Made by a program: the position numbers and the translations under genes. From a virus: a DNA stretch of 64,000 nucleotides. Shown here piece after piece: positions 44,465 to 58,151 of this stretch (the stretch's first letter is position 1; each line of letters opens with the position of its first letter). Under the pieces are notes generated by a model that was not told the DNA's origin, did no database searches, and worked only from the letters and a program-made list of their open reading frames with translations. The stretch spans positions 19,653-83,652 of the IMG/VR virus record IMGVR_UViG_3300021085_000019; one strand, 5' to 3'.

Positions 44465-45040
44465 ATGACTAAAAAAATCAAACCTAAAGATAAACCGCAT
44501 TATGTGAATAACAGAGATTTTTCACAAGCAGTAATGGATTACGCTGTAAAAGCTAAAGCCGCTAAAGAAGCAGGCGAACGTACTCCTATTGTTACTGATT
44601 ATATTGCCACATGTTTCATGAAAATTTCAGAAGGCCTGTCTCACAGACCGAACTTCGTTCGGTACACTTATCGTGAAGAGATGGTAATGGATGGAGTAGA
44701 AAATTGTTTAAGAGCAATTAATAATTATAAAATTGATACTGCTACAAGAACCGGTAATCCAAACGCTTTTTCTTATTTTACACAAATATGCTACTTTGCT
44801 TTTATACGTAGAATAACTAAAGAGAAAAAGCAACAAGATATTAAGTTTAAGTTCATCGAAAAGATGGGAATTGAAGACTTTGCTGCTATGGGTATGGACG
44901 ATGCAGGTGCTCAACAAACAATGGCCTATGTAGATACGCTAAGAAGCAGAATCGATCAGATTAGAACTAAAGATGCTAAGATTAAAGAGTTCGCAAAGAT
45001 TGAAAAAGAGAAAGAAAAACTAGAACTCTTTATGGTATAA
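44465..45040 (+). CDS. gp55: Late transcription sigma factor gp55
   Basis: Protein of 191 residues (T4 185). The start KPKDKPHYVNNRDFSQAVMDY parallels T4 gp55 (KPKYNYVNNKEL). The core ISEGLSHRPNFVRYTYREEMVMDGVENCLRAINNY and NPNAFSYFTQICYFAFIRRITKEKKQQ corresponds to the sigma region 2-like part that contacts RNA polymerase and reads the late -10 box. The TATAAATA boxes listed here are its expected targets. The late co-activator gp33 is not in the window; the clamp gp45 is. It is driven by an early-type promoter, as required for a regulator made before late genes. Confidence 0.94.
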   Translation: MTKKIKPKDKPHYVNNRDFSQAVMDYAVKAKAAKEAGERTPIVTDYIATCFMKISEGLSHRPNFVRYTYREEMVMDGVENCLRAINNYKIDTATRTGNPNAFSYFTQICYFAFIRRITKEKKQQDIKFKFIEKMGIEDFAAMGMDDAGAQQTMAYVDTLRSRIDQIRTKDAKIKEFAKIEKEKEKLELFMV

Positions 45041-45043
45041 TAT

Positions 45044-46105
45044 ATGAAAATAGCAATATTAAATGACACTCATTGTGGTGTAAGAAACTCGTCTGATATT
45101 TTTTTAAAGTATCAAGAAAGATTTTATGAGGAAATATTTTTTCCATATTTGAAAGAAAATAATATAACAAACATTCTTCATTTAGGAGATTATTATGAAC
45201 ACAGAAAATTCGTTAACTTTAAAGCACTCAATGCTAATCGTAAGCATTTTCTTGAGCCTATGCGTGATGCCGGTATTACCATGGATATTATTCCCGGAAA
45301 TCATGATGTCTATTTCAAAAACACTAACGAGTTGTGCAGCCTCAAAGAATTGCTTGGTTATTTTACCAGCAATGTAAATATAATTATGAAACCAACGGTG
45401 TTGGACTATGATGGTTTAGGCGTTGCAGTTATCCCGTGGATTAATAATGCTAACTATAAAGAGTATGTCGATTTTGCTTTAAACTGTAAAGCTCCTATTC
45501 TCGGCGCGCATTTAGAATTGGCTGGTTTTGAAATGATGGCAGGAGTAACTAATCCTCACGGAATGAATGCAGACATTTTCTCTAGGTTTGAAAAAGTATT
45601 GTCCGGACATTTCCATACAAGATCAAGTCAAGGTAATGTTGATTACTTAGGTTCCCAGTTTGAGTTTACATGGGCCGATGTCGATGATCCAAAATATTTT
45701 CACGTATTAGATACTGAAACAAGAGAAGTAGAGGCTGTCCGTAATCCTATTACTATGTTTAAAAAGATTATATACGATGATAGTAATACCGATTATACTA
45801 ATTTTGATTTTACAGATTATGAGCATAAGTTTATTAAGCTTATTGTATTGAACAAAAATGATTTATACATGTTTGATAAATTTGTCGATAAGCTACAAAG
45901 CACTGAAACGTATGAACTGAAAATTGCCGAAAGTTTTGAGGAATACTTAGGTGAAAGCGTAGAAGATGAAAAAGTATCTTTAGAGGATACAACTGAATTA
46001 TTAGATTCTTATGTAGAAGCAGTCGACACTGAACTAGATAAAGATCATTTAAAAATTGAATTGAGAAAGCTTTATACAGAAGCACAAAACTTAGAGGTAG
46101 TATGA
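45044..46105 (+). CDS. gp47: Recombination nuclease subunit gp47 (Mre11-like)
   Basis: Protein of 353 residues (T4 339). All phosphoesterase motifs are present: NDTHCGVRN (residue ~7), HLGDYYEHRKFVN (~50), PGNHDVYF (~87), GAHLELAGF (~160) and SGHFHTRS (~188). With gp46 it forms the Mre11/Rad50-like complex that processes double-strand ends and starts recombination-dependent replication. It starts three bases after the gp55 stop and overlaps gp46 by 4 nt, so the two subunits are co-translated. Confidence 0.95.
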   Translation: MKIAILNDTHCGVRNSSDIFLKYQERFYEEIFFPYLKENNITNILHLGDYYEHRKFVNFKALNANRKHFLEPMRDAGITMDIIPGNHDVYFKNTNELCSLKELLGYFTSNVNIIMKPTVLDYDGLGVAVIPWINNANYKEYVDFALNCKAPILGAHLELAGFEMMAGVTNPHGMNADIFSRFEKVLSGHFHTRSSQGNVDYLGSQFEFTWADVDDPKYFHVLDTETREVEAVRNPITMFKKIIYDDSNTDYTNFDFTDYEHKFIKLIVLNKNDLYMFDKFVDKLQSTETYELKIAESFEEYLGESVEDEKVSLEDTTELLDSYVEAVDTELDKDHLKIELRKLYTEAQNLEVV

Positions 46106-47817
46106 TACATTTCAAAAGCGTAAGTTGGAAGAATTTTCTTTCGACTGGAAATGATACAATTAAAGTCCAATTAGATCGAACACCATCGACACTCATCGTA
46201 GGTTCTAACGGTGCAGGTAAGTCAACAATGCTAGATGCTCTGTCATTTGGACTATTTGGAAAGCCACACAGGGACATTAAAAAAGATCAGATGATTAATA
46301 GTATCAATAAGAAAGGTACTATTGTTGAAGTAGAGTTTGCTATTGGTAATTCGGATTTTAGAATCTTGAGAGGAATTAAACCTAACAAGTTTGAGATTTG
46401 GCAAAACGGAAATATGATTAACCAATCATCAAATGCTAGAGATTATCAAAAGTTCTTAGAACAGAACATACTTAAATTAAACCATAAATCATTTCATCAA
46501 GTTGTTGTATTAGGAAGTAGTTCTTTTATACCATTTATGCAACTACCAGCTTGGACACGTAGATCTGTTATCGAGGATTTATTAGATATTAATATTTTCT
46601 CAAAGATGAACATGTTACTAAAAGAACGTAACTCTAAGATTAAAGACGAACTTACTGAGATTAATCATTCTTTAGATCTATATAAAGCTAAGATGGATAC
46701 TCAAAGCAAGTATATTAAGGATCTACAAGCAATTAATAAAGATATGATTGCGTCAAAGCAAGGTTCAGTAGAATCCTATGAGGAAGATGTTAAGACTCTT
46801 GTTGGTGAATCTGCTGAACTAGGTAAAAACCTAGATACATTGACAGAGATTGAAAGCGATAGGCATGATGAACTATCTAAGAAAGTTTCTGACATTAAAT
46901 CTGAGGATAGAGTGTTTAAGTCAAAGATTAAAGATCTTGTAACTGAAGCTAAATTCTTCGAAGACAATCAGCATTGTCCTACGTGTGATCAAGATATAGA
47001 TGTGTCTATCAAAGAGTCTAAATTAGCTAAGATTAAAGAAGCTGCAGCAGAAATTCAAAGGGGTATGAAAGATCTTGCCGAAGAAAATGACGCATGCGCT
47101 GTACAGTTAACTGAATGCCAAGATAATATGAAAGAGTTAGTTGCTAAGCAAAGACAAATAAACTCTAATAACGATAAGATTAATTTAATTCAAAAAGAGA
47201 TTGAAAAGATCCAAAAGGAAATTACAAATTTATTACAATCGTCAGGAGATATTAAAACCGCTAAAGATGAACTTGAAACTCTTCGCGATGGTAAAGACAC
47301 AATGACCGAGAAAAAACTAGAATATGTAGAAGAGCGCACGTACAATGAAGTTATAGGCGAGATGTTGAAAGATACGGGCATAAAAACGAAGGTTATTAAG
47401 CAGTATCTTCCAGTTATGAATAGGCTTATCAATCAATACTTACAAGTGCTAGACTTCTTTGTTGCATTCCATCTAGATGAAAACTTCACAGAGACTATTA
47501 GATCGCGTCATAGAGATGCATTTAACTATGCATCATTTAGTGAAGGTGAAAAGCAAAGAATTGACCTATCACTATTGTTTACGTGGAGACAGATTGCTAA
47601 GATGAAAAATTCTGCATCTACTAATTTACTCATTCTAGACGAAACCTTTGATTCTTCATTAGATCATGATGGTATTGACAATCTAACAAAAATACTAAAT
47701 ACGTTAGAAGATGGCACTAATGTCTTTATTATATCGCATAAAGGGGACATTTTAGAGAATAAGTTTAGATCTAAGATCGAGTTTATCAAAGAAAGAAACT
47801 TCTCTAAGATTAAGTAA
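46102..47817 (+). CDS. gp46: Recombination nuclease subunit gp46 (Rad50-like ATPase)
   Basis: Protein of 571 residues (T4 560). Walker A is VGSNGAGKSTMLDALSFGLF (~34). Long coiled-coil arms flank a zinc hook CPTC (Cys292/Cys295). The ABC signature is FSEGEKQRIDLSLLF (~478) and Walker B is NLLILDETFDSSLD (~512). It dimerises through the hook and controls gp47 nuclease activity. After its stop there are 136 bp with a palindrome (TTATAAGCTTATAA at 47841-47854) and the promoter of the next gene. Confidence 0.95.
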   Translation: MIHFKSVSWKNFLSTGNDTIKVQLDRTPSTLIVGSNGAGKSTMLDALSFGLFGKPHRDIKKDQMINSINKKGTIVEVEFAIGNSDFRILRGIKPNKFEIWQNGNMINQSSNARDYQKFLEQNILKLNHKSFHQVVVLGSSSFIPFMQLPAWTRRSVIEDLLDINIFSKMNMLLKERNSKIKDELTEINHSLDLYKAKMDTQSKYIKDLQAINKDMIASKQGSVESYEEDVKTLVGESAELGKNLDTLTEIESDRHDELSKKVSDIKSEDRVFKSKIKDLVTEAKFFEDNQHCPTCDQDIDVSIKESKLAKIKEAAAEIQRGMKDLAEENDACAVQLTECQDNMKELVAKQRQINSNNDKINLIQKEIEKIQKEITNLLQSSGDIKTAKDELETLRDGKDTMTEKKLEYVEERTYNEVIGEMLKDTGIKTKVIKQYLPVMNRLINQYLQVLDFFVAFHLDENFTETIRSRHRDAFNYASFSEGEKQRIDLSLLFTWRQIAKMKNSASTNLLILDETFDSSLDHDGIDNLTKILNTLEDGTNVFIISHKGDILENKFRSKIEFIKERNFSKIK

Positions 47818-47865
47818 TTTCGAGTCCTTATTCCGAAAAGTTATAAGCTTATAATAAATACGTAT

Positions 47866-47925
47866 AAAAAATATATACTTTTTTTTAAAAAAAGTGTGTA
47901 CAAACACCTCAAAACTTAGTATAAT
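47866..47925 (+). promoter_or_regulatory. Early/middle promoter cassette, copy 1 (before HExxH/VWA gene)
   Basis: -35 TGTACA (47897-47902), 17-bp spacer, -10 TATAAT (47920-47925). Upstream is AAAAAATATATAC, followed by eight T and seven A residues. That self-complementary stretch could act as an A-tract UP element or as a U-tract terminator for gp46. It is nearly identical to the cassette at 50073-50131. Confidence 0.88.
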
Positions 47926-47953: not shown

Positions 47954-50065
47954 ATGTACGACAATTCAAGCTTACCCAAACTACTGGCGAAAGAGAATAT
48001 CTCTATTCGTCACGGCAACTATCAAACCCCTTGGTTTGACATCAAGAACCGTGTTCTCGGTCTTCCTCTCTGGAAGGATATGGGTAAAGACGTTTATGAT
48101 CTATTTGTTGGTCATGAAGTTGGTCATGCATTAGAAACTCCATATGAAGGATGGCACGACAGCCCTGAAAAACTTCAAGGCTGTCCACGTTCTTATATTA
48201 ACGTTATTGAAGATGCTAGAATCGAAAGAAAAATCAAAGCTAGATATCCTGGTTTAGTTGGTCCTTTTAGTAGAGCTTATGCTACACTATATGATGACAA
48301 CTTCTTTTCTACTGATGATCTAGATCTTACAAAACTTAGAATCATTGATAAAATTAATCTTCAAGCTAAAGTTGGTGTTCACGTTGATATCGACTTCAAC
48401 GACGAAGAACAAGTGTTTATGGATAGAGCAATGTCGACTAATGACTTTCAAGAAGTCTTAGAATTAGTTAAAGACATTGTTGAGTATGATAAGCAATTCG
48501 ATGACGAAGATGAAGAACCAAATGCTCCTGAAGATGATAATGAAGAGCAACTTGACGAGCCTCAGTTCAATGATGATAGCAACGACGGTCAAGGAGATAA
48601 CGAGTCAGAAAAAGAAGACGAAACTCCAAACTCATCAGGAGATGATGACGACGAAGAAGAAGAGTCGGAAGAAGAACAAGAAGTTTCTGCTTCTAAAGGA
48701 GCTGACGGTAAACTTTCTATTACTGACGAAGCTTTTAGAAATAACGAAAGTTCTTTACTTGACACAAACGAAAATGGACAACAAACTCTAACTTTGTCTG
48801 ACATTAATAAAGAAATAAGAAAAAGAATTGTTATTGACAACAAAACTCTACAAGAAGAAAGAGATTATAAGATCGAAAACGCTGCAGATTACGTTAAAGA
48901 CAGTATTGCTATGGCAATGGCTGAATATGGTTCATATATGAAAAGCGCAAACAGATCTGTTGCAGTCGCTGTAAAAGAGTTTGAAATGAGAAAAGCTGCG
49001 GTTCAATGGCAAAAAGCTTCAACCGCAAAGACAGGAATTATTGACGTTAATAAATTGTTTTCTTATAAAACAAATGACGATATATTCTTGCAAACGACAA
49101 GACTACACGATGCTAAGAATCACGGAATGATGATGCTTATCGATTATTCTGGATCTATGTCTGAGTCACTTCAACATGTACTAGATCAATTAATTCACTT
49201 AGTGTTATTCTGTAAGAAAGTAAATATTCCTTTTGAAGTTTATGCTTTTACTACTACGAATCAATCAATCGATTCTTGGGATTTAAGAAATCAAGGTTTA
49301 CTGTTTGATGGCGATTTAGATTTAGATAATCTCTCAATGCCATTGTTAATTTCGTCAAAGCTTAAAAAGCCAGACTTTGAAAAAGCACTTACTTCTTTAT
49401 ACTTAAGATCGAAAATTGGTGGTTGGAGTGGTAGAGACATCATCTCTAATCACGAAGATTGGGGTTCTACTCCACTAGATCAAGCTTTAATTATGTCACA
49501 TCATCTAGTTAAAGAATTTAAATCTAAGAATCAAGTAGAAAAAATGAATCTAGTTGTGTTCTCTGACGGAGAATCAAATGGAATAAGAGGTTACTCTGAC
49601 AACTCTATTGATAAAGTTCCGACTAATCATGGTTATAGTTCGATCAACATAATGGTTGACGGCAAACTAGTTAAAGCCGAAGGTAGAAAATATACAACAA
49701 AGGCATTACTTGAAAACCTAAGATCAAGATACAACATTAACTGTATCGGATTCTTTATGGCTGATAACAATAGAATGTTCAACACTAAAGTTGATGATAT
49801 CGTCGGTGTGACTTGGGCTGAAGATTCTAGGAGAGAAGCTCAAAAAGAGTATAGAAAAAATAAGTGTGTTGTTAGAACAAATGCATTAGGATACAACGAG
49901 TTTTACTTGATCAAAGGCGGAAATCAACTTGCGACTGACGACGACGAATTTGATGTGAATTCAGACCAAACTAGAGGTCAAATGGCAAGCGCGTTTAAAA
50001 AGTACTCAAAGAGTAAGAAGCAAAACAAGGTTCTTATGACCACTTTCGGTAGAGCAGTTGCATAA
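47954..50065 (+). CDS. CobT-like protein: HExxH metallopeptidase-like domain, acidic linker, VWA domain
   Basis: Protein of 703 residues. The N-terminal domain has a zinc-metallopeptidase-type HEVGHALETP (from ~residue 54) with a downstream NVIEDARIERKI (Glu of EDARIE as possible third ligand). Residues ~175-245 are a very acidic linker. From ~390 a von Willebrand A domain has a complete MIDAS: DYSGSMS (~397), STPLDQAL and VVFSDGESNG. The overall plan of acidic linker plus C-terminal VWA is that of CobT, the partner of the CobS AAA+ ATPase, and a CobS-like gene follows. Such MoxR/VWA pairs act as metal-insertion or protein-remodelling machines. The target is unknown; corrin biosynthesis is not supported because no CobN is seen. 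The ribosome binding site is AAGGAG. Confidence 0.85.
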   Translation: MYDNSSLPKLLAKENISIRHGNYQTPWFDIKNRVLGLPLWKDMGKDVYDLFVGHEVGHALETPYEGWHDSPEKLQGCPRSYINVIEDARIERKIKARYPGLVGPFSRAYATLYDDNFFSTDDLDLTKLRIIDKINLQAKVGVHVDIDFNDEEQVFMDRAMSTNDFQEVLELVKDIVEYDKQFDDEDEEPNAPEDDNEEQLDEPQFNDDSNDGQGDNESEKEDETPNSSGDDDDEEEESEEEQEVSASKGADGKLSITDEAFRNNESSLLDTNENGQQTLTLSDINKEIRKRIVIDNKTLQEERDYKIENAADYVKDSIAMAMAEYGSYMKSANRSVAVAVKEFEMRKAAVQWQKASTAKTGIIDVNKLFSYKTNDDIFLQTTRLHDAKNHGMMMLIDYSGSMSESLQHVLDQLIHLVLFCKKVNIPFEVYAFTTTNQSIDSWDLRNQGLLFDGDLDLDNLSMPLLISSKLKKPDFEKALTSLYLRSKIGGWSGRDIISNHEDWGSTPLDQALIMSHHLVKEFKSKNQVEKMNLVVFSDGESNGIRGYSDNSIDKVPTNHGYSSINIMVDGKLVKAEGRKYTTKALLENLRSRYNINCIGFFMADNNRMFNTKVDDIVGVTWAEDSRREAQKEYRKNKCVVRTNALGYNEFYLIKGGNQLATDDDEFDVNSDQTRGQMASAFKKYSKSKKQNKVLMTTFGRAVA

Positions 50066-50072
50066 TACTGCT

Positions 50073-50131
50073 AAAAAATATATACTTTTTTTCAAAAAAG
50101 TGTGTACAAAGCCGCTGAAACTTGGTATAAT
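50073..50131 (+). promoter_or_regulatory. Early/middle promoter cassette, copy 2 (before CobS-like gene)
   Basis: -35 TGTACA (50103-50108), 17-bp spacer, -10 TATAAT (50126-50131). The upstream part AAAAAATATATAC, T-run and A-run matches copy 1 at 47866-47925 except for a small change in the T/A run. Confidence 0.88.
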
Positions 50132-50166
50132 ATAACCTGAATTAATAATTGATAAGGAACTACATT

Positions 50167-51300
50167 ATGAAAGATATGAAAATCTCAACACAAAATATTT
50201 TAAAAGAACTGGCTAAGAATTATCCAGATCAAACTTCGTTCAGAAAGAACGTAATTGAAACCACGGCGAAATCCATGGGTTATACAGGAAAAGACTTTTA
50301 TCCTATGCTTACTGCAGAAAATAGAGTCAAGATCGGTACTTATGACTTAAGTGCTTTACTACAAACCGTAGAGGTAGATAATAACGTGATTGACATCGCT
50401 CCTGCAGCTAAGATGCAGTCTATTGTAAATGAAGAAAAAACCTTTGCGAAAGCGGATCCTACGTTTGTTCCTTGGGGAGCATTCCATGATCTAGTAAAAA
50501 TGATTAAATCAGAAATGTTCTATCCTGTTTACGTTTCAGGACTATCTGGTAACGGTAAAACGTTTATGGTAGAACAAGCGTGTTCAAAACTTAATAGGGA
50601 GTTCATACGTGTTCAAATTAATCCGGAAACAGATGAAGACGATTTGCTTGGAGGTTTCAGACTTATCAATGGAGAAACTGTCTTCTCTAAAGGTCCTGTT
50701 CTTAAAGCGATGGAAAACGGTGCAATCTTATTGCTCGACGAAATTGATAGAGCTACAAATAAAATTATGTGTCTACAAGGCATACTTGAAGGTAAACCTG
50801 TTCTTGTTAAAAAGACGGGTGAGACAATCTCTCCTGCGCCTGGCTTCAATGTTATAGCGACTGCTAATACAAAAGGTAAAGGTTCAGAAGACGGTAGGTT
50901 TACTGCTGCTTCGATCATTGATGAAGCTTTCTTAGAAAGGTTTACAGTTGCGATCGATCAGAAGTTTCCATCTCCTTCAATCGAAACTAAAATTCTTAAC
51001 AATCACATGTCTAAGTTCGGAACTGAAGATGCCGACTTTGTAGAAAAGCTAATTACTTGGGCTGACATTATCAGAAAGACTTTCTATGATGATGGTGTTG
51101 ACGAAGTTATTTCAACTAGAAGGCTTTGTCATATTGCTCAAACATTCTCTATCTTTAAGAATAGAGCAAAGGCGATCGATCTATGTATCGCTAGGTTTGA
51201 CGAAGACACTAAGTCAGCTTTCTTAGATCTCTACAGCAAAGTTGATGCTGGAGTCGAAACCTTAGATACAACAGAGGATAACTATGGCGAAACAGCATAA
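50167..51300 (+). CDS. cobS: MoxR/CobS-family AAA+ ATPase
   Basis: Protein of 377 residues from the ATG at 50167, which has AAGGA nine bases upstream; a TTG at 50149 would place the ribosome binding site inside the gene. Walker A is GLSGNGKTF (~124), followed by the MoxR-type QINPETDEDDLLGGFRL, KGPVLKAMENGAILLLDEID (Walker B ~189), sensor 1 VIATANTKG and FLERFTVAID with the arginine finger region. QINPETDEDDLLGG is the CobS-like segment. It acts with the VWA protein encoded just upstream. Marine T4-like phages often carry cobS, whose role in infection is unsettled. Confidence 0.88.
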   Translation: MKDMKISTQNILKELAKNYPDQTSFRKNVIETTAKSMGYTGKDFYPMLTAENRVKIGTYDLSALLQTVEVDNNVIDIAPAAKMQSIVNEEKTFAKADPTFVPWGAFHDLVKMIKSEMFYPVYVSGLSGNGKTFMVEQACSKLNREFIRVQINPETDEDDLLGGFRLINGETVFSKGPVLKAMENGAILLLDEIDRATNKIMCLQGILEGKPVLVKKTGETISPAPGFNVIATANTKGKGSEDGRFTAASIIDEAFLERFTVAIDQKFPSPSIETKILNNHMSKFGTEDADFVEKLITWADIIRKTFYDDGVDEVISTRRLCHIAQTFSIFKNRAKAIDLCIARFDEDTKSAFLDLYSKVDAGVETLDTTEDNYGETA

Positions 51301-51577
51301 ACCCGATTATAAATTTAACGAAGGAGCTCTCATCGCAGAGCTCCACGCTTATATAGATTCTACTTACGGAGCACATTACGGTCAAGGAGGACTTCAATCA
51401 TCTGAAGTAATAGTTGATAGAGGACATGGACTTGGATTTTTTCTAGGAAATGTCGACAAATATAATGCTCGGTATGGTAAGAAGGGAACTCCAGAAGATC
51501 ACAGAAAAGATCTTATGAAGGTCTTACACTACGGATTGCTTGCGCTCTATGAGCATGATCGATTAAATAAAAAATAA
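51284..51577 (+). CDS. DUF3310/SaV-like small protein
   Basis: Protein of 97 residues that overlaps the end of the CobS-like gene by 17 nt. The C-terminal part GLGFFLGNVDKYNARYGKKG and DLMKVLHYGLLALYEHDRL follows the SaV/DUF3310 pattern 'F.LGN.iKY..R.GkK....DL.Ka..YL..L', a phage family annotated as possible nucleotide kinase but without proven activity. The N-terminal part has a histidine-rich AHYGQGG segment like the 'HY...' start of that family. It is predicted to be cytoplasmic. The family call is by pattern, and the function is unproven. Confidence 0.6.
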   Translation: MAKQHKPDYKFNEGALIAELHAYIDSTYGAHYGQGGLQSSEVIVDRGHGLGFFLGNVDKYNARYGKKGTPEDHRKDLMKVLHYGLLALYEHDRLNKK

Positions 51578-51637: not shown

Positions 51638-52303
51638 ATGAAAATATCAAGTGAAACAATTAGTATCCTAAAAAACTTTTCGGGTATTAATGCAAATCTA
51701 GTCTTTAAACCTGGAAAGGAACTAAAGACTATTTCGGAAGCAAAAACTATTATGGCAACCGCATCAATCCTAGAGGACTTTCCTGTAGAATTTGGTGTGT
51801 ATGATCTTAACGAGTTTTTGTCGTTGTATAATCTTATGGAAGATCCTACATTAGAATTTAGTGATAAGTATCTCACTATCTCAGATGGATCACAAAAGAT
51901 TAAATATTATTATTCTGAAGTCGATATCCTTACACAACCAAGTAAAGATATCAACATGCCAGAGTGTGAAGTTGTGTTAGATTTATCAATGGAAAACCTC
52001 CAGAAGATTCAAAAAGCAGCCGCTGTACTCGGACATTCAGAACTGAGTTTTATTGGTGATGGTAATAGCGTTGTCGCATCTGTATTTAATGAGAAAGATT
52101 CTACTGCAAATACATTTGATATCGACCTAGGTATTGGCACCAGTGAGACTTTTAATTATGTCTTTAGTATTTCTAATTTAAAAATGCTACAAGGCGATTA
52201 TAAAGTATCGATTTCATCTAGGCTCATTTCTAATTGGAGAAATGCTGATAATCCTTTAGATTATTTTATCGCTTTAGAGAAATCATCAAGTTTCGGTGTA
52301 TAA
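51638..52303 (+). CDS. gp45: Sliding clamp gp45
   Basis: Protein of 221 residues (T4 228). The start MKISSETISILKNFSGINANLVFKPG and the following DFPVEFGVYDLNEFLSLYNL match gp45. The C-terminus has ISNLKMLQGDYKVSISSRLIS and a last strand DYFIALEKSSSFGV. The trimeric ring holds DNA polymerase on DNA and, in T4, is also the mobile activator of late transcription through gp33 and gp55. This links the replisome to the late boxes in this window. The stop codon TAA lies within a late box. Confidence 0.93.
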   Translation: MKISSETISILKNFSGINANLVFKPGKELKTISEAKTIMATASILEDFPVEFGVYDLNEFLSLYNLMEDPTLEFSDKYLTISDGSQKIKYYYSEVDILTQPSKDINMPECEVVLDLSMENLQKIQKAAAVLGHSELSFIGDGNSVVASVFNEKDSTANTFDIDLGIGTSETFNYVFSISNLKMLQGDYKVSISSRLISNWRNADNPLDYFIALEKSSSFGV

Positions 52304-52306
52304 ATA
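52299..52306 (+). promoter_or_regulatory. Late promoter box TATAAATA
   Basis: Exact late box overlapping the gp45 stop codon. It begins a 104-bp leader with several inverted repeats before the gene at 52410. Confidence 0.75.
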
Positions 52307-52325
52307 AATATGCACAGAAAAAATT

Positions 52326-52383
52326 CTCATAATATTATGAGGATAATACGAGAAGATGCCGAATTGGTCGGGTCTCTCATAAT
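52326..52383 (+). other. Structured leader RNA: shared 20-base core element, copy 1, with alternative pairings
   Basis: Contains the core GATGCCGAATTGGTCGGGTC (52355-52374), identical to that in the Hsp20 leader. The core forms CCGA/TCGG around ATTGG, then a TG/G internal loop and GA/TC. Outside it, GAGA (52350-52353) pairs with TCTC (52375-52378). Just upstream is a perfect palindrome CTCATAAT/ATTATGAG (52326-52341). CTCATAAT occurs again at 52376-52383, so ATTATGAG can pair with either copy, as in an attenuator or riboswitch. It lies directly downstream of a late box and upstream of the gene at 52410. Confidence 0.7.
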
Positions 52384-52409
52384 TAGTCTACTTTGCAAAG
52401 GAGAAGAAA

Positions 52410-52685
52410 ATGACTGAAGAAGTAAACGCACCTGAAGGTGTACAAGAGGAGCAACAAGCTCCACAACTGTCTCTACAAGACATTGCAACTTTCGTACAGA
52501 TTATCGATATCTGTTCTAAAAGGGGTGGTTTTGAAGGTCAGGAAATGGAAGCTGTTGGCGGACTCAGAAACAGAACTGTTGCATTTCTAAATGCGGCATC
52601 TGCTGAGCAGGGCAAAGAAGCTCCAGAAGGCATGGTCCCAGCTGGCGACGATTTGCCTGAAACAGTTGAAGCTGAAGAAGCTTAA
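52410..52685 (+). CDS. Conserved-type hypothetical protein between clamp and clamp loader (91 aa)
   Basis: Acidic protein of 91 residues: an N-terminal Glu/Gln/Pro-rich tail, then a helical core LSLQDIATFVQIIDICSKRG, FEGQEMEAVGGLRNRTVAFLNAA and an acidic C-terminus. The 'L.lqDl...v.iId.as.RGaf.a.El..VG.lydrl..FL' layout resembles small proteins found in marine T4-like phages, whose function is unknown. The strong ribosome binding site AAGGAG and the structured leader driven by a late box suggest abundant, regulated late expression, unlike the replication genes around it. A terminator follows. Confidence 0.65.
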   Translation: MTEEVNAPEGVQEEQQAPQLSLQDIATFVQIIDICSKRGGFEGQEMEAVGGLRNRTVAFLNAASAEQGKEAPEGMVPAGDDLPETVEAEEA

Positions 52686-52700
52686 TTGTACTAGCTTAAT

Positions 52701-52734
52701 GTGGGGGTAGCTCCCCCACGCACTACTAATTTTT
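52701..52734 (+). terminator. Hairpin terminator after the 91-aa gene
   Basis: Stem GTGGGGG/CCCCCAC (7 bp, very GC-rich) around TAGCT, followed after 10 bases by five T residues. The spacing of the T-run is longer than ideal, but the stem is strong in an AT-rich genome. Confidence 0.7.
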
Positions 52735-52751
52735 ATTATGAAGGATATATT

Positions 52752-53009
52752 ATGGATCGCAATGAAGTTTCGCGTCTTATTGACGCACTTAAAAAAGGTA
52801 CTGTAACGGTCACCTTTCAGAAAATTGACTCTGACGAAATACGAGTCATGCCCTGCACTCTCAACCCTACTGTACTACAAGCGCACGGAATGAAATCCGT
52901 GATTGAAAGCGTTAGTCCTGAAACCGAGCACATTGCTGCATGGTCTCTAGACAAAGAAGCGTGGAGATCATTTCGCGTTAACACAGTTATTGGTTGGGAG
53001 GTATTATAA
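52752..53009 (+). CDS. WYL_2/DUF2693 Sm-like SH3 beta-barrel protein (85 aa)
   Basis: Protein of 85 residues from the ATG at 52752; an in-frame GTG further upstream falls inside the terminator stem and is not credible. The sequence TVTVTFQKIDSDEIRVMPCTLNPTVL and the ending AAWSLDKEAWRSFRVNTVIGWEVL are the pattern of the WYL_2 (formerly DUF2693) Sm-like SH3 barrel family, with the MPCTLNP and WRSFRV landmarks. The family is widespread in phages, with unknown ligand. Its stop codon overlaps the gp44 start (TAATG), so it is coupled to the clamp loader. Confidence 0.8.
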   Translation: MDRNEVSRLIDALKKGTVTVTFQKIDSDEIRVMPCTLNPTVLQAHGMKSVIESVSPETEHIAAWSLDKEAWRSFRVNTVIGWEVL

Positions 53010-53944
53010 TGTCAGAATTTCTTTGGGTTGAAAAATATCGTCCACAAAAAATTCAAGACTGCATTTTACCAAAATCAATCAAGAAAACTTTTGAAGATAT
53101 TGTTAAAGGAGGTGACCTACACAATATGCTTCTTACCGGAACAGCCGGCCTGGGTAAAACAACAGTCGCGAAAGCTTTATGTAACGAACTTGAACTAGAT
53201 TATCTTCTGATCAATGGATCCGAAGAATCTGGCATTGATACTCTGCGCAACAAGATCAAACAATTTGCATCTACAGTTTCACTTCAAGGTGGCTACAAAG
53301 TAGTTATTTTGGATGAAGCAGATTATCTTAACGCTCAATCAACGCAACCTGCATTACGTGGTTTTATTGAAGAGTTCTCAAATAACTGTCGATTTATATT
53401 GACATGTAATTTCAAGAACAGAATCATTGAACCCTTGCATTCACGTTGTACTACCATTGAGTTTAACGTTTCTAAGAAAGATTCAGTTCCACTTTGTGGA
53501 CAATTTCTCAAACGTTGTACATCAATCCTAACGGACGAAGGTATATCATTTGATGAAAAGGTAGTTGCTGAACTTATTATGAAACACATGCCTGATTGGC
53601 GTAAAGTTCTAAATGAACTTCAACGTTACAGTAGTAGCGGTACTATTGATACAGGCATTTTAGTATCTTTATCGGAAGTCTCTCTTAATGATCTTATGAT
53701 TCACTTAAAAGAGAAAAACTTTAAAGGTATGCGTCAGTGGGTAAGTAATAATATTGATTCTGAACCTGCAGCAATTTATCGTAAAATTTATGATAATATG
53801 AATGACTATATTGATCCTCAGAGTATACCACAATTGGTACTTATTCTAGCGGATTATCAATACAAGAATTCTTTTGTTGCAGATCACGAATTAAATACTG
53901 TTGCTTGTCTTACTGAGGTAATGGCGGGGGTTCGTTTCAAATGA
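53009..53944 (+). CDS. gp44: Clamp loader large subunit gp44
   Basis: Protein of 311 residues (T4 319). The ATG at 53009 has GGGAGG seven bases upstream; the alternative TTG at 52994 would overlap that site. It shows FLWVEKYRPQKIQDCILP (the RFC-family start), Walker A GTAGLGKTTVAKAL (~42), Walker B VVILDEADYL (~100), sensor 1 ILTCNFKNRI and the SRC motif HSRCTTIEF with the arginine finger. With gp62 it opens the gp45 ring and loads it at primer ends. It overlaps gp62 by 4 nt. Confidence 0.96.
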   Translation: MSEFLWVEKYRPQKIQDCILPKSIKKTFEDIVKGGDLHNMLLTGTAGLGKTTVAKALCNELELDYLLINGSEESGIDTLRNKIKQFASTVSLQGGYKVVILDEADYLNAQSTQPALRGFIEEFSNNCRFILTCNFKNRIIEPLHSRCTTIEFNVSKKDSVPLCGQFLKRCTSILTDEGISFDEKVVAELIMKHMPDWRKVLNELQRYSSSGTIDTGILVSLSEVSLNDLMIHLKEKNFKGMRQWVSNNIDSEPAAIYRKIYDNMNDYIDPQSIPQLVLILADYQYKNSFVADHELNTVACLTEVMAGVRFK

Positions 53945-54321
53945 ACCCCTTCGATTATCTAAACGCAATTAATGTAACAAAAAAGGATATAATGGTTGAT
54001 GATGTTTCTGAAAAAGCATATGCTCCATTTATGGTAAATCGTGGACTTTCTTATTTTCCTGACACTGTTCTTTTCGCTAATGAGATGAATGTAAATCATC
54101 ATATTGATCATCGTCTTCAATTTGATTTTTTTATAAATATAATTAACAAGAAGAAAAGATTTTCTAAATGGGCCAAACCCATTGACATAGAAAATTTAGA
54201 ATTAATAAAAGAATATTATGGATATAGTAATGAAAAAGCTAAATCTGTATTGTCATTATTAACTAATGATGAAATTAACGAATTGAAATTAAGGATTTAT
54301 AAAGGTGGAAAACGAAAATAA
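53941..54321 (+). CDS. gp62: Clamp loader small subunit gp62
   Basis: Protein of 126 residues (T4 187). The motif MVNRGLSYFPDTVLFANEMN and the following HRLQFDFFINIINKKKRFSKW are typical of gp62. It also has LIKEYYGYSNEKAKSVLSLL. The marine forms are shorter than T4. It is located between gp44 and RegA, as in T4, with overlaps of 4 and 17 nt. It is the non-ATPase subunit of the 4:1 gp44/gp62 loader. Confidence 0.93.
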   Translation: MNPFDYLNAINVTKKDIMVDDVSEKAYAPFMVNRGLSYFPDTVLFANEMNVNHHIDHRLQFDFFINIINKKKRFSKWAKPIDIENLELIKEYYGYSNEKAKSVLSLLTNDEINELKLRIYKGGKRK

Positions 54322-54829: not shown

Positions 54830-54837
54830 TATAAATA
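54830..54837 (+). promoter_or_regulatory. Late promoter box TATAAATA of Hsp20 gene
   Basis: Exact late box 63 bp before the Hsp20 ATG and directly before the second copy of the shared leader element. Confidence 0.75.
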
Positions 54838-54900: not shown

Positions 54901-55353
54901 ATGGTAAGAAGTACTATGAACGTACCACGTTCACTTTTCATTGGATTTGATCCAATATTAAACGAGCTTGAAAGAATTCACTCAGCTGGAAGATCTCAAG
55001 ATAACTATCCCCCACACAACGTTGTGAAGATCGATAATGATAACTTCAATATCGAACTCGCTGTTGCAGGATTTTCGGAAGAAGACATTTCTGTAGAAGT
55101 AAAGGATGGTATTCTATTAGTTAAAGGTCAACAAAGTGATGATGATCGTGAATACGCACACAAAGGTATCTCGTCCCGCAAATTTGAGAAGTCCTTCCGA
55201 CTCTCAGAATTTGTCGTAATAGATGGGGCCGATCTCGTGAACGGCATACTTGTGGTGAATGCCAGAGTTGAAGTTCCAGAAGAGAGGCGTCCTAGGAAGA
55301 TCGAAATCGGGTCTGCTGGGGCATCAAAGAAGAAGGAATTTATCCAAGATTAA
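54901..55353 (+). CDS. hsp20: Small heat shock protein, Hsp20/IbpA type
   Basis: Protein of 150 residues. The alpha-crystallin domain runs from ~residue 38 to 128 (PPHNVVKIDNDNFNIELAVAGFSEEDISVEVKDGILLVKG, with the AGF hallmark, then FEKSFRLSEFVVIDGADLVNGILVV). The N-terminus RSLFIGFDPILNELERI is that of IbpA. Marine T4-like phages commonly encode Hsp20, which is expected to keep capsid or host proteins from aggregating. The ribosome binding site is strong (ATAGGAGGAAA) and expression is late, from a structured leader. Confidence 0.93.
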   Translation: MVRSTMNVPRSLFIGFDPILNELERIHSAGRSQDNYPPHNVVKIDNDNFNIELAVAGFSEEDISVEVKDGILLVKGQQSDDDREYAHKGISSRKFEKSFRLSEFVVIDGADLVNGILVVNARVEVPEERRPRKIEIGSAGASKKKEFIQD

Positions 55354-55634: not shown

Positions 55635-58151
55635 ATGAACATAAAATTCTATACAAACGTTTCTCGATACGGCAACTCGCTAATGTATCGTGGTTATAAA
55701 AACGGCAAAAAGATTCAAACAAAAATTAAATATCAACCTACTTATTTTGTAAGTACGGCCAAACCGTCTGCGTGGAAATCACTAGATGGTAATAACGTAT
55801 CACCAATTAAATTCGAATCTATGCGTGATGCAAAAGAATGGCTAAAGGTGAACGAGCATGTTGTTGGTAGACATATCTACGGAAACAACAAACACATTCC
55901 AGCTTTTATCAATGATGAATTTCCAGGTGAAATTAAATTTGATAGAAATCTAATTAACGTAACAACGATCGATATCGAGGTTCAATCCGACGCAGGATTT
56001 CCTGAACCAGAACACGCAGCGCATGAAGTTACTGCTATCTGTATGAAAAACAATATTGATAATACATTCTACGTATGGGGTTTAAAAGACTATGATGTAG
56101 AATCTTCGATCATGCAAGAAAACAGAGTTGTCTATAAGAAGTGCGCAACAGAATCTGAACTACTACTTGAATTTATTGCGCATTGGTCTTTACCTTCACA
56201 TTGTCCAGATGTTATTACGGGTTGGAACTCTCGATTCTTTGATATGCCATATCTGATTAATCGTATCATTAAAATACATGGCGAAGATATAGTTCGTAGA
56301 ATATCTCCATGGGGATTACTAGATCGACGTGATGTAACAACAATGCAACGTAAACAAATTGCATATGATATTCAAGGCATTGCTCAAATGGATTACCTTG
56401 ATTTATTTCGTAAGTTTGGCTATTCCTATGGTCCACAAGAATCTTATAAACTTGATCATATTGCTTCAGTTGTACTTGGTGAGAAAAAGCTAAGCTATGA
56501 AGAACACGGTAACTTGCATACGCTTTATAAGCATGATCATCAAAAGTTTATCGACTATAATATTAAAGACGTAGATCTTGTTGATCGCTTCGAGGATAAG
56601 ATGGGACTTATTACTCTAGCACTTACTATGGCGTATCGTGGTGGTGTAAACTACAGCGATGTTATGGGTACTACTGCAATATGGGATGCTATCATATTCC
56701 GAAATCTATATTCTAATAATGTAATTATTCCGTTTGGAGAAGAAAAGTTTAAAACCCCATATCCTGGTGGTTATGTGAAAGATCCACATGTTGGAATGCA
56801 CGAATGGGTTGTTTCTTTTGATCTTAATTCCCTGTATCCGTCTATTATTATGCAGTACAATATGTCACCAGAAACAATTATATCTGGTAAAGTTGCTAAC
56901 GTAAATGTAGACAATCTACTTACTGGAGAACTTAAACCGCGGCTCGAACAAGGCGAATGCGCTTCGGCTTCAGGTCAATACTTTAAAACAGATGAACAAG
57001 GTATCTTACCTAAAATCATTGACGAAATGTATAGTGAGCGTGTTGTCATTAAAAAGCAAATGATTAATTCGCAACGAGAGCTTGAAAGGATAGACAAAAA
57101 TGATAAACAAGAATTATACCGAGTACAGCGTGATATCGCTATAGCAGAAAATCAACAAATGTCTATTAAGATCCTTCTTAATTCTCTTTATGGTGCTTTG
57201 GGCAACAAGTACTTTAGATTCTTCGATCAGCGAATCGCAGAAGGAATTACGCTTACTGGACAGCTTACAATACGATGGGCTGAAAAAGCAATTAATAATT
57301 ACCTCAACTCAGTGCTTAAAACAAAGAAAGACTACGTCCTTGCTATTGATACCGACTCGGTGTATGTATGCTTAGACGATCTTGTATCTGCAGTAAATCC
57401 TAAAAACCCATTAGAATTTGTCGATACAGTTTGCAAAGAAAAGCTTGAAGACGTCCTAGAAAAATCTTATGGTGAATTGTTTGACATTATGGGTGGTATC
57501 GAAAATCGTATGGTAATGAAACGTGAAGCTATTGCTGACCGTGGTATATGGACTGCCAAAAAGCGGTATATCCTAAACGTGCTTGACAATGAAGGAGTAC
57601 GTTATGCCGAACCTAAACTTAAGATTATGGGTATCGAAGCTATTAAGTCTTCTACTCCGGCTCCTTGTCGAGAAGCTCTAAAAGAAATATTTAAAACAAT
57701 TATCGGTGGTACTGAACGTGATGTTCAAGGTAATATTGAATCATTCAGAACATATTTTAAAACATTATCACCAGATCAGATTGCATTCCCTCGAGGTATT
57801 ACAAATCTGACACAATTCAGAGATAAGCAAACTGTATACAAAAAAGGTACTCCGATTCATGCACGTGGCGGAATACTGTATAACAAAATGCTTAAAGATC
57901 TTTCATTAGATAAACAATACAACAAAATTCAGAATGGCGAGAAAATTAAATTCATATATCTCAGAACGCCAAATCATATCAAAGAGAATGTCATATCATT
58001 CCTTGACTATTTGCCGGAAGAGTTTGGATTGCATCGTTATATTGATTATGATACTCAGTTCAATAAAACCTTCCTTGATGTTATTGATCCGATACTATCA
58101 GCAGTTGGATGGAATTCAAAAGAAGTTGCAACACTCGACGAATTCTTTTAA
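55635..58151 (+). CDS. gp43: Family B DNA polymerase gp43
   Basis: Protein of 838 residues (T4 898). The 3'-5' exonuclease has Exo I TIDIEVQSD (~113), Exo II ITGWNSRFFDMPYL (~200) and Exo III YNIKDVDLV (~307). The polymerase has motif A SFDLNSLYPSIIMQYN (~394), motif B ILLNSLYGALGNKYFR (~513), motif C AIDTDSVYV (~570) and KKRYIL (~640). The C-terminal end (LDEFF) is a clamp-binding type tail like that of T4. It is driven by its own promoter after a terminator and lies downstream of RegA, which in T4 represses gene 43-region mRNAs. Confidence 0.97.
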   Translation: MNIKFYTNVSRYGNSLMYRGYKNGKKIQTKIKYQPTYFVSTAKPSAWKSLDGNNVSPIKFESMRDAKEWLKVNEHVVGRHIYGNNKHIPAFINDEFPGEIKFDRNLINVTTIDIEVQSDAGFPEPEHAAHEVTAICMKNNIDNTFYVWGLKDYDVESSIMQENRVVYKKCATESELLLEFIAHWSLPSHCPDVITGWNSRFFDMPYLINRIIKIHGEDIVRRISPWGLLDRRDVTTMQRKQIAYDIQGIAQMDYLDLFRKFGYSYGPQESYKLDHIASVVLGEKKLSYEEHGNLHTLYKHDHQKFIDYNIKDVDLVDRFEDKMGLITLALTMAYRGGVNYSDVMGTTAIWDAIIFRNLYSNNVIIPFGEEKFKTPYPGGYVKDPHVGMHEWVVSFDLNSLYPSIIMQYNMSPETIISGKVANVNVDNLLTGELKPRLEQGECASASGQYFKTDEQGILPKIIDEMYSERVVIKKQMINSQRELERIDKNDKQELYRVQRDIAIAENQQMSIKILLNSLYGALGNKYFRFFDQRIAEGITLTGQLTIRWAEKAINNYLNSVLKTKKDYVLAIDTDSVYVCLDDLVSAVNPKNPLEFVDTVCKEKLEDVLEKSYGELFDIMGGIENRMVMKREAIADRGIWTAKKRYILNVLDNEGVRYAEPKLKIMGIEAIKSSTPAPCREALKEIFKTIIGGTERDVQGNIESFRTYFKTLSPDQIAFPRGITNLTQFRDKQTVYKKGTPIHARGGILYNKMLKDLSLDKQYNKIQNGEKIKFIYLRTPNHIKENVISFLDYLPEEFGLHRYIDYDTQFNKTFLDVIDPILSAVGWNSKEVATLDEFF

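Follow-up and report, generated by a model that had tools for sequence, protein, structure and literature searches.

The window analyzed here is a stretch of 64,000 bases from the 83,652-base virus record IMGVR_UViG_3300021085_000019, of a marine phage with a T4-like replication module, and it carries neighboring genes for a VWA protein with a metal ion-dependent adhesion site (MIDAS) and for an AAA+ ATPase. The pair was placed, with moderate confidence, in a branch of the CobS/CobT (MoxR-VWA) superfamily that is carried by mobile elements, appears, from its sequences and a structural model, to have kept a working-looking metalloprotease, and is predicted to act as an AAA+/VWA remodeling machine. 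This reading draws on homology and conservation, on the predicted fold, and on promoters and gene linkage. The zinc-protease site is intact here and lost in the true B12 proteins, and therefore protein remodeling or cleavage is a more probable role of the pair than vitamin synthesis, as which such pairs are usually classified; the insertion of cobalt into corrin is probably not its dedicated job. The features of the two genes were as follows.

47954..50065, + strand: VWA/MIDAS protein of 703 aa with an N-terminal gluzincin-like domain; phrog_459 'peptidase', CobT-related
47954..48502, + strand: N-terminal zincin-like domain, residues 1–183 (AlphaFold2 model and zincin look-alikes in PDB)
48113..48127, + strand: HEVGH zinc-binding/catalytic motif, residues 54–58 (invariant in A1, A2 and A3; 152/152 open reading frames (ORFs))
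48200..48226, + strand: NVIEDARIE motif, residues 83–91, with E86 as presumed third zinc ligand (N83, E86, D87, R89 and I90 invariant in 79 sequences)
48506..48703, + strand: acidic disordered linker, about residues 185–250 (from sequence; predicted local distance difference test (pLDDT) <50 in most of 193–250)
49142..49567, + strand: MIDAS residues D397-S399-S401, T506 and D538 of the VWA domain (invariant in 77 sequences)
50149..51300, + strand: CobS/NorQ/MoxR-class AAA+ ATPase, Walker A at 50539–50562 and Walker B near 50737–50742

Profile searches matched the VWA protein to phrog_459 'peptidase' (E 8e-180 over residues 5–703) and the ATPase to phrog_249 ('CobS', 'porphyrin biosynthesis'; E 9e-112 over 17–374), so that the pair is not a product of chance. 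The start of the ATPase gene is more likely the ATG at 50167, preceded by a TAAGGAA ribosome site, than the TTG at 50149. The HEVGH motif, the highly acidic linker and the complete MIDAS were all found where the original prediction, made from the DNA letters alone, had put them, and the CobS/MoxR ATPase and DUF3310-like protein said to follow were matched by AAA_5 (E 4.3e-22), CbbQ_C (E 4.3e-5) and DUF3310 (E 6.1e-8).

Conservation of the zinc site and the MIDAS

Relatives were gathered by two viral scans, one genome scan and named records, which gave 171 full-ORF loci, 152 of them unique. HExxH, which was absent from every search pattern, was present near residue 54 in 152/152 unique ORFs. 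The motif N-x-x-E-D-x-R-I-[ED] was also found in all 152, a count that is partly biased because this motif was itself a pattern in two of the three scans. Across 77 diverse phage-type sequences, H54, E55, H58, N83, E86, D87, R89 and I90 were invariant, as were the MIDAS residues D397, S399, S401, T506 and D538. When two plasmid-type sequences were added (79 N-termini), no columns of the domain stayed invariant except H54, E55, H58, N83, E86, D87, R89, I90 and G100. The combination typical of gluzincins, HExxH with an invariant downstream Glu, could thus be observed. Judged from these alignments, the zinc-site motif is real and under strong constraint.

Predicted fold and affinities of the two proteins

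Since VWA domains filled the fold search made with the full-length protein, the N-terminal domain was folded alone. The AlphaFold2 model of residues 1–188 (pLDDT 89.2, predicted template modeling score 0.85) revealed a three-stranded sheet, a helix with HExxH (44–61) and a helix with E86 (79–97). Foldseek gave no match at E 0.001 or better (best E 0.13), and its first matches were the plasmid antirestriction protein ArdC and selecase. Upon VIA re-alignment, the top 16 rows were all zincins, led by abylysin (Z 6.3, root mean square deviation (rmsd) 3.4, 93 aligned) and including ArdC (Z 6.0, rmsd 4.0, 122 aligned), selecase, BlaR1, jannalysin, IrrE/PprI and a putative Zn-dependent peptidase. 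The consistency of this list, and not any single match, suggests a zincin fold. The structure prediction proposed earlier as a check thus gave a fold with HExxH in a helix and with zincins as the best-ranked PDB matches. CobT was not among the fold matches, an absence without meaning given the April 2026 end of the structure library. A search of PDB sequences returned nothing relevant with A2 and no match with A3.

The full-length model (pLDDT 83.1) had a C-terminal VWA half nearest to NorD (Z 16.5, rmsd 5.1, 263 aligned), and the MIDAS domain of midasin was also matched (Z 15.5, rmsd 3.3, 214 aligned). Against solved structures, the ATPase matched midasin (1.8e-44), CobS (6e-19), NorQ (2e-18) and CbbQ (3e-16), and it is therefore equally close to NorQ and CobS. 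As in the MoxR-VWA chaperone pairs NorQD and RavA-ViaA, a MoxR-clade AAA+ protein stands beside a MIDAS VWA protein. NorQD and midasin/Rea1 provide the closest solved VWA structures and close ATPases but have no metallopeptidase domain; their known clients are nitric oxide reductase (NorQD) and pre-60S factors (midasin/Rea1).

This similarity supports an activator like NorQD or CbbQO, whose ring would open a metalloenzyme for the insertion of a cofactor or metal, the zinc being structural or regulatory and no peptide bond being cut. The NorD-like VWA half, the CbbQ_C match and the NorQ match of the ATPase agree with such a role. However, the catalytic-type E55 is as invariant as both histidines, and a purely structural zinc would not need it, which makes the activator not very likely.

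Neither protein comes near the equivalog cut-offs of cobaltochelatase: the ATPase scored 65.7 bits against TIGR01650 (CobS; cut-off 558.55), and the VWA protein had no match to TIGR01651 (CobT) at 0.01. In a 43-row ATPase tree, in which chromosomal CobS was represented by gamma rows only, the phage branch (100/99) stood apart from 14 gamma CobS (100/100). The plasmid ATPases grouped weakly (88/30), and HVTV-1, SSU5 and some others formed long branches of unsure placement. In this tree the phage ATPase does not branch from within chromosomal CobS, and a recent host origin of the phage 'cobS' is therefore unsupported.

Relation to CobT

The VWA protein of the window has no direct Pfam CobT match. 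The protein of Salmonella phage SSU5 carries HEVAH and matches both Pfam CobT (2e-37) and CobT_C (2.5e-112). Hidden Markov models (HMMs) were built on N-terminal pieces only, so that acidic linkers could not score. An HMM of 7 plasmid-type proteins and SSU5 matched 77/77 phage N-termini at E<1e-3, and the phage N-terminal HMM matched SSU5 at 1.2e-11. A whole-record profile search likewise recovered the zinc regions of SSU5 (5.9e-6) and IncC (2.5e-5) and found nothing in the jumbo phage Atu_ph07. On this profile evidence, the phage N-terminal domain is homologous to the CobT N-terminus through a transitive link that runs via the plasmid relatives and SSU5. The genome scan also returned proteins of the same layout in Methylophilus and Zhongshania (L178, L179), each beside a DUF3150-like ORF, and the Zhongshania locus additionally has a CobS-like ATPase.

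The zinc site was then compared in an alignment with N-termini read from stop to stop, in which 12 of the 77 available phage rows were used. H-E-x-x-H was present in 25/25 mobile-type rows (12/12 phage, 9/9 mobile-element and 4/4 gammaproteobacterial mobile-type); the mobile-element rows were seven of plasmid or integrative and conjugative element (ICE) type, SSU5 and the archaeal virus HVTV-1. It was present in 0/58 chromosomal CobT-like rows (31 alpha, 15 gamma and 12 diverged alpha), which are those fetched from 107 alpha and 19 gamma genomes with a Pfam CobT match. These rows mostly read D-[AS]-x-A-L at the motif place, and 55/58 kept E86. Given this split, chromosomal CobT resembles a zincin whose histidines have been lost, and the names 'peptidase' and 'CobT' would each be partly right. 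The cobaltochelatase CobST (TIGR01650, TIGR01651; PDB 9uka) accordingly resembles the window pair in its AAA+ protein and its VWA protein with an acidic linker and homologous N-terminal domain, but differs in the missing zinc motif and in the separate clade of its ATPase. In the open-access literature, no paper calling the CobT N-terminus a degenerate peptidase was found, although several of the searches were aimed elsewhere. An Azospirillum plasmid VWA protein (L183:8926-11067) has HEAGGH, which is one residue longer than HExxH.

The cobalamin question

The literature holds two opposed readings of the VWA protein, 'peptidase' and CobT, which the present evidence reconciles. In PMC8651126, CobT is said to be 'mistakenly annotated' as a peptidase, and the viral pair of archaeal tailed viruses, cyanophages included, is read as CobST that hijacks host CobN. 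The pair would replace host CobST or ChlID and raise cobalamin, for example for a B12-dependent ribonucleotide reductase. The VWA protein is indeed a CobT relative, and CobN was above cut-off in 24/31 genomes of one cyanobacterial family. For the same reason, the earlier argument from a missing CobN is weak evidence, even though its observation was correct and no CobN was found in the whole 83,652-base record, which is possibly a fragment.

Against viral CobST stand the zinc site, invariant in the mobile-element branch and lost from all 58 chromosomal rows, the scores of both proteins far under the chelatase cut-offs, and an ATPase as near to NorQ as to CobS. Further, 1128 plasmid records contain relatives, and many of these plasmids come from enterobacteria. 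A CobN/Mg-chelatase match was found in 20/31 genomes with canonical alpha CobT and in 8/33 other genomes (gamma CobT-positive, two mobile-type and diverged alpha), several of the genomes being possibly incomplete; it was thus missing in 25/33, the majority of which have a diverged CobT-like or a mobile-type gene. Viral CobST is accordingly considered unlikely. A diverged CobT-like gene is also present in 12 small alphaproteobacterial genomes (L218-L229), perhaps incomplete, and 11/12 showed no CobN; since CobN is mostly missing beside diverged CobT, chromosomal CobST may serve a non-cobalamin role there. A further point against viral CobST is that the pair-bearing phage HTVC008M infects Pelagibacter (SAR11), which is not known to synthesize B12; on SAR11 B12 auxotrophy, the literature searched gave nothing usable.

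Distribution and gene neighborhood

The VWA protein was matched in 463/50,697 phage records (365 Synechococcus, 61 'Cyanophage', 24 Prochlorococcus, 7 'Marine', 3 Pelagibacter and 3 others), and the ATPase in 652, including 365 Synechococcus, 61 'Cyanophage' and 24 Prochlorococcus. The pair has the same location in Pelagibacter phage HTVC008M and in Prochlorococcus phage P-SSM4. The cyanophage pair phrog_459 (T4-GC 146)/phrog_249 (T4-GC 150) has the same families, order and gp46-gp45 place, and the window pair is a member of it, with a diverged VWA protein of <60% identity to that of any isolate. PMC3037559 lists cobS within the cyanophage core. The original prediction had spoken of an undefined phage machine, a remodeling or metal-insertion complex with a protease. 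The remodeling machine with an apparent protease, distinct from a dedicated cobaltochelatase, agrees with the present reading, but the pair is neither undefined nor unusual in phages.

The surrounding features of the pair were as follows.

44465..47817, + strand: upstream context, gp55 (late sigma), gp47 and gp46 (SbcD/SbcC-like)
47896..47925, + strand: sigma70-like promoter of the VWA gene, GTGTACA-N17-TATAAT
50102..50131, + strand: sigma70-like promoter of the ATPase gene, a near-copy of the VWA-gene promoter
51284..51577, + strand: DUF3310 protein (phrog_480), the usual downstream neighbor (E 6.1e-8, above the Pfam cut-off)
51638..54321, + strand: downstream context, gp45 clamp and gp44/gp62 clamp loader

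Of 82 loci with a VWA ORF, 68 also had the ATPase, directly downstream in 68/68. Among loci with enough flank, gp46 (107/118) and gp47 (81/89) were found upstream of the VWA gene, and DUF3310 (83/112) and gp45 (66/74) downstream.

Relatives were present in 1128/72,556 plasmid records; of these, 930 are classified as conjugative. The AAA-DUF3150-VWA module of plasmids and ICEs (IncC and other MOBH plasmids), which lies by ssb/bet/exo, is similar to the phage pair in its MoxR-type ATPase, its recombination neighbors and a VWA protein with HExxH, ED.RIE, acidic linker and MIDAS. It differs in the extra DUF3150 and in gene order, while the phage has DUF3310. Genes for ssb and a recombinase/exonuclease were found no more than about 9 kb from the VWA gene in 4/5 plasmid regions (L180, L182, L183, L184), and the fifth (L181) showed only the ATPase and DUF3150 beside it. 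The SSU5 pair sits between DNA ligase and Pol III alpha. The gp46/47-gp45, plasmid ssb/exo and SSU5 settings make the association with DNA replication and recombination recurrent in unrelated mobile elements, which is suggestive. In plasmid Rts1 (L230:1388-7192), exo is followed by MoxR, DUF3150 and a VWA gene broken by IS2. In HVTV-1, a SprT-like protein (L267:1776-2492), a second putative zinc protease, lies about 2 kb from the AAA gene. No credible match was found in the PADLOC defense library.

A MoxR/vWA pair with an N-terminal metallopeptidase has already been proposed in jumbo phages, with a role in virion assembly (PMC7824862). The Atu_ph07 pair (ASV44728.2/ASV44729.1) has in principle the same architecture as the window pair but consists of DUF2201_N and DUF2201 (PF13203 and PF09967), with HQxxH instead of HExxH. 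Membership in the same family was rejected, as the VWA proteins showed no BLAST similarity and the window protein had no PF13203 or PF09967 match at E 1.

Promoters and predicted timing

The sequence [AG]TGTACA (GTTTACT in one case)-N17-TATAAT was found 47–60 bases upstream of seven window genes, namely gp55, the VWA gene, the ATPase gene, gp45, gp43, 58211 and 61289. These promoters (44414, 47896, 50102, 51580, 55575, 58159 and 61230) are co-directional, lie in the replication half and have a palindromic -35 region. They may represent a phage-specific early/middle class. The pattern of the VWA and ATPase copies occurred four times at ≤3 mismatches against 0.01 expected. Near-identical blocks of about 70 bases precede the VWA (47857-47925) and ATPase (50064-50131) genes, with an A/T palindrome immediately before the promoter, and these duplicated blocks could serve both genes as an UP element or as a binding site for a regulator.

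The late-type site TATAAATA was present within 160 bases upstream of twelve window genes, including the tail tube gene, Hsp20 and uvsY, and no window gene had both kinds of site. Across the window, TATAAATA occurred 19 times against 11.2 expected, mildly above chance, and CTAAATA was not enriched. As late-type sites also precede uvsY (41984), the promoters are split by position and not perfectly by function, and the early-type pattern was drawn up with the repeats already in view. Among the relatives, TATAAT was upstream of 92/135 VWA and 78/104 ATPase genes (background 12.1%), the extended promoter site upstream of 29/135 and 21/104 (background 1.5%), and TATAAATA upstream of 6/135 and 0/104 (background 2.4%). 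The VWA and ATPase genes are thus predicted to be under host-type (early/middle) promoters, unlike the structural genes with their late ones.

A chaperone-protease of virion assembly, in which the ATPase and VWA protein would assemble head or tail and the peptidase would trim structural proteins as proposed for the similarly built jumbo-phage pair, is quite improbable, given the sigma70-like promoters of both window genes, the few late sites of the relatives, the position in the replication module and not amid structural genes, the conjugative plasmids that make no virion yet carry relatives, and the different family (DUF2201_N/DUF2201) of the published pair.

Proposed mode of action

In the favored AAA+/VWA remodeling machine, the ATPase would form a ring and the MIDAS face would bind a client. 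ATP-driven movement, passed through the acidic linker, would pull or open this client, and the zincin domain would clip it. The weakest step is the client itself, most likely a protein of the replication/recombination complex or a host DNA-associated protein; the machine would act early, perhaps on DNA-associated proteins.

Several observations weigh against this reading. The fold matches of the N-terminal domain are weak one by one (Foldseek E 0.13, VIA Z 6.3), each within the chance range. CobT rows match the N-terminal HMM weakly (best CobT-like 1.9e-7, best reversed decoy 0.67), and a direct hhalign comparison of the phage domain with the canonical CobT N-terminal domain was not significant. 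CobT retains both E86 and R89, so that E86 perhaps has a structural role and is no ligand. Upstream of the VWA gene, late-type sites (TATAAATA or CTAAATA) were found in 17/165 relatives against a background of 4.65%, a mild enrichment. Gene neighborhood is suggestive and no proof of function. Rts1 still transfers, according to PMC10838148; its VWA gene being already broken by IS2, the Rts1 deletion data tell only of dispensability.

A bolder view, which is speculative and has a small chance of being right, would make CobT a dead metalloprotease. An ancestral AAA+/VWA/gluzincin machine, still present in phages, archaeal viruses and conjugative elements, would strip or clip DNA-bound proteins (end-bound, crosslinked or replisome-blocking) for the neighboring end-processing recombination systems, gp46/47 in phages and Red-like exo/bet in plasmids. 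It would be a mobile-element counterpart of Cdc48-Wss1/SPRTN, and its use in cobalt chelation would have come later, when it was domesticated on chromosomes and the zinc site was lost.

T4-like cyanophages have the pair in their core gene set, and some pelagiphages carry it too; ocean surveys count it among the B12 auxiliary metabolic genes, with cobS serving as a marker gene of B12 synthesis (PMC9983427). If the protease machine is true, a widely used ecological inference would be wrong, and the conflicting annotations peptidase and CobT would merge into one testable family. The readings can be told apart by a prediction: phages and plasmids should depend on the zinc site, and CobT should not. 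The results also point to an uncharacterised module common to phages and multidrug-resistance plasmids.

Other genes of the module

The gene starts in the module were gp55 44465, gp47 45044, gp46 46102, gp45 51638, gp44 52994 and gp62 53941, followed by Hsp20 at 54901 and a DNA polymerase, named from its sequence, at 55635. The Hsp20 gene (54901-55353) lies in the replication cluster and, unlike most of its neighbors, has a late-type TATAAATA at 54830, which fits a role in capsid assembly.

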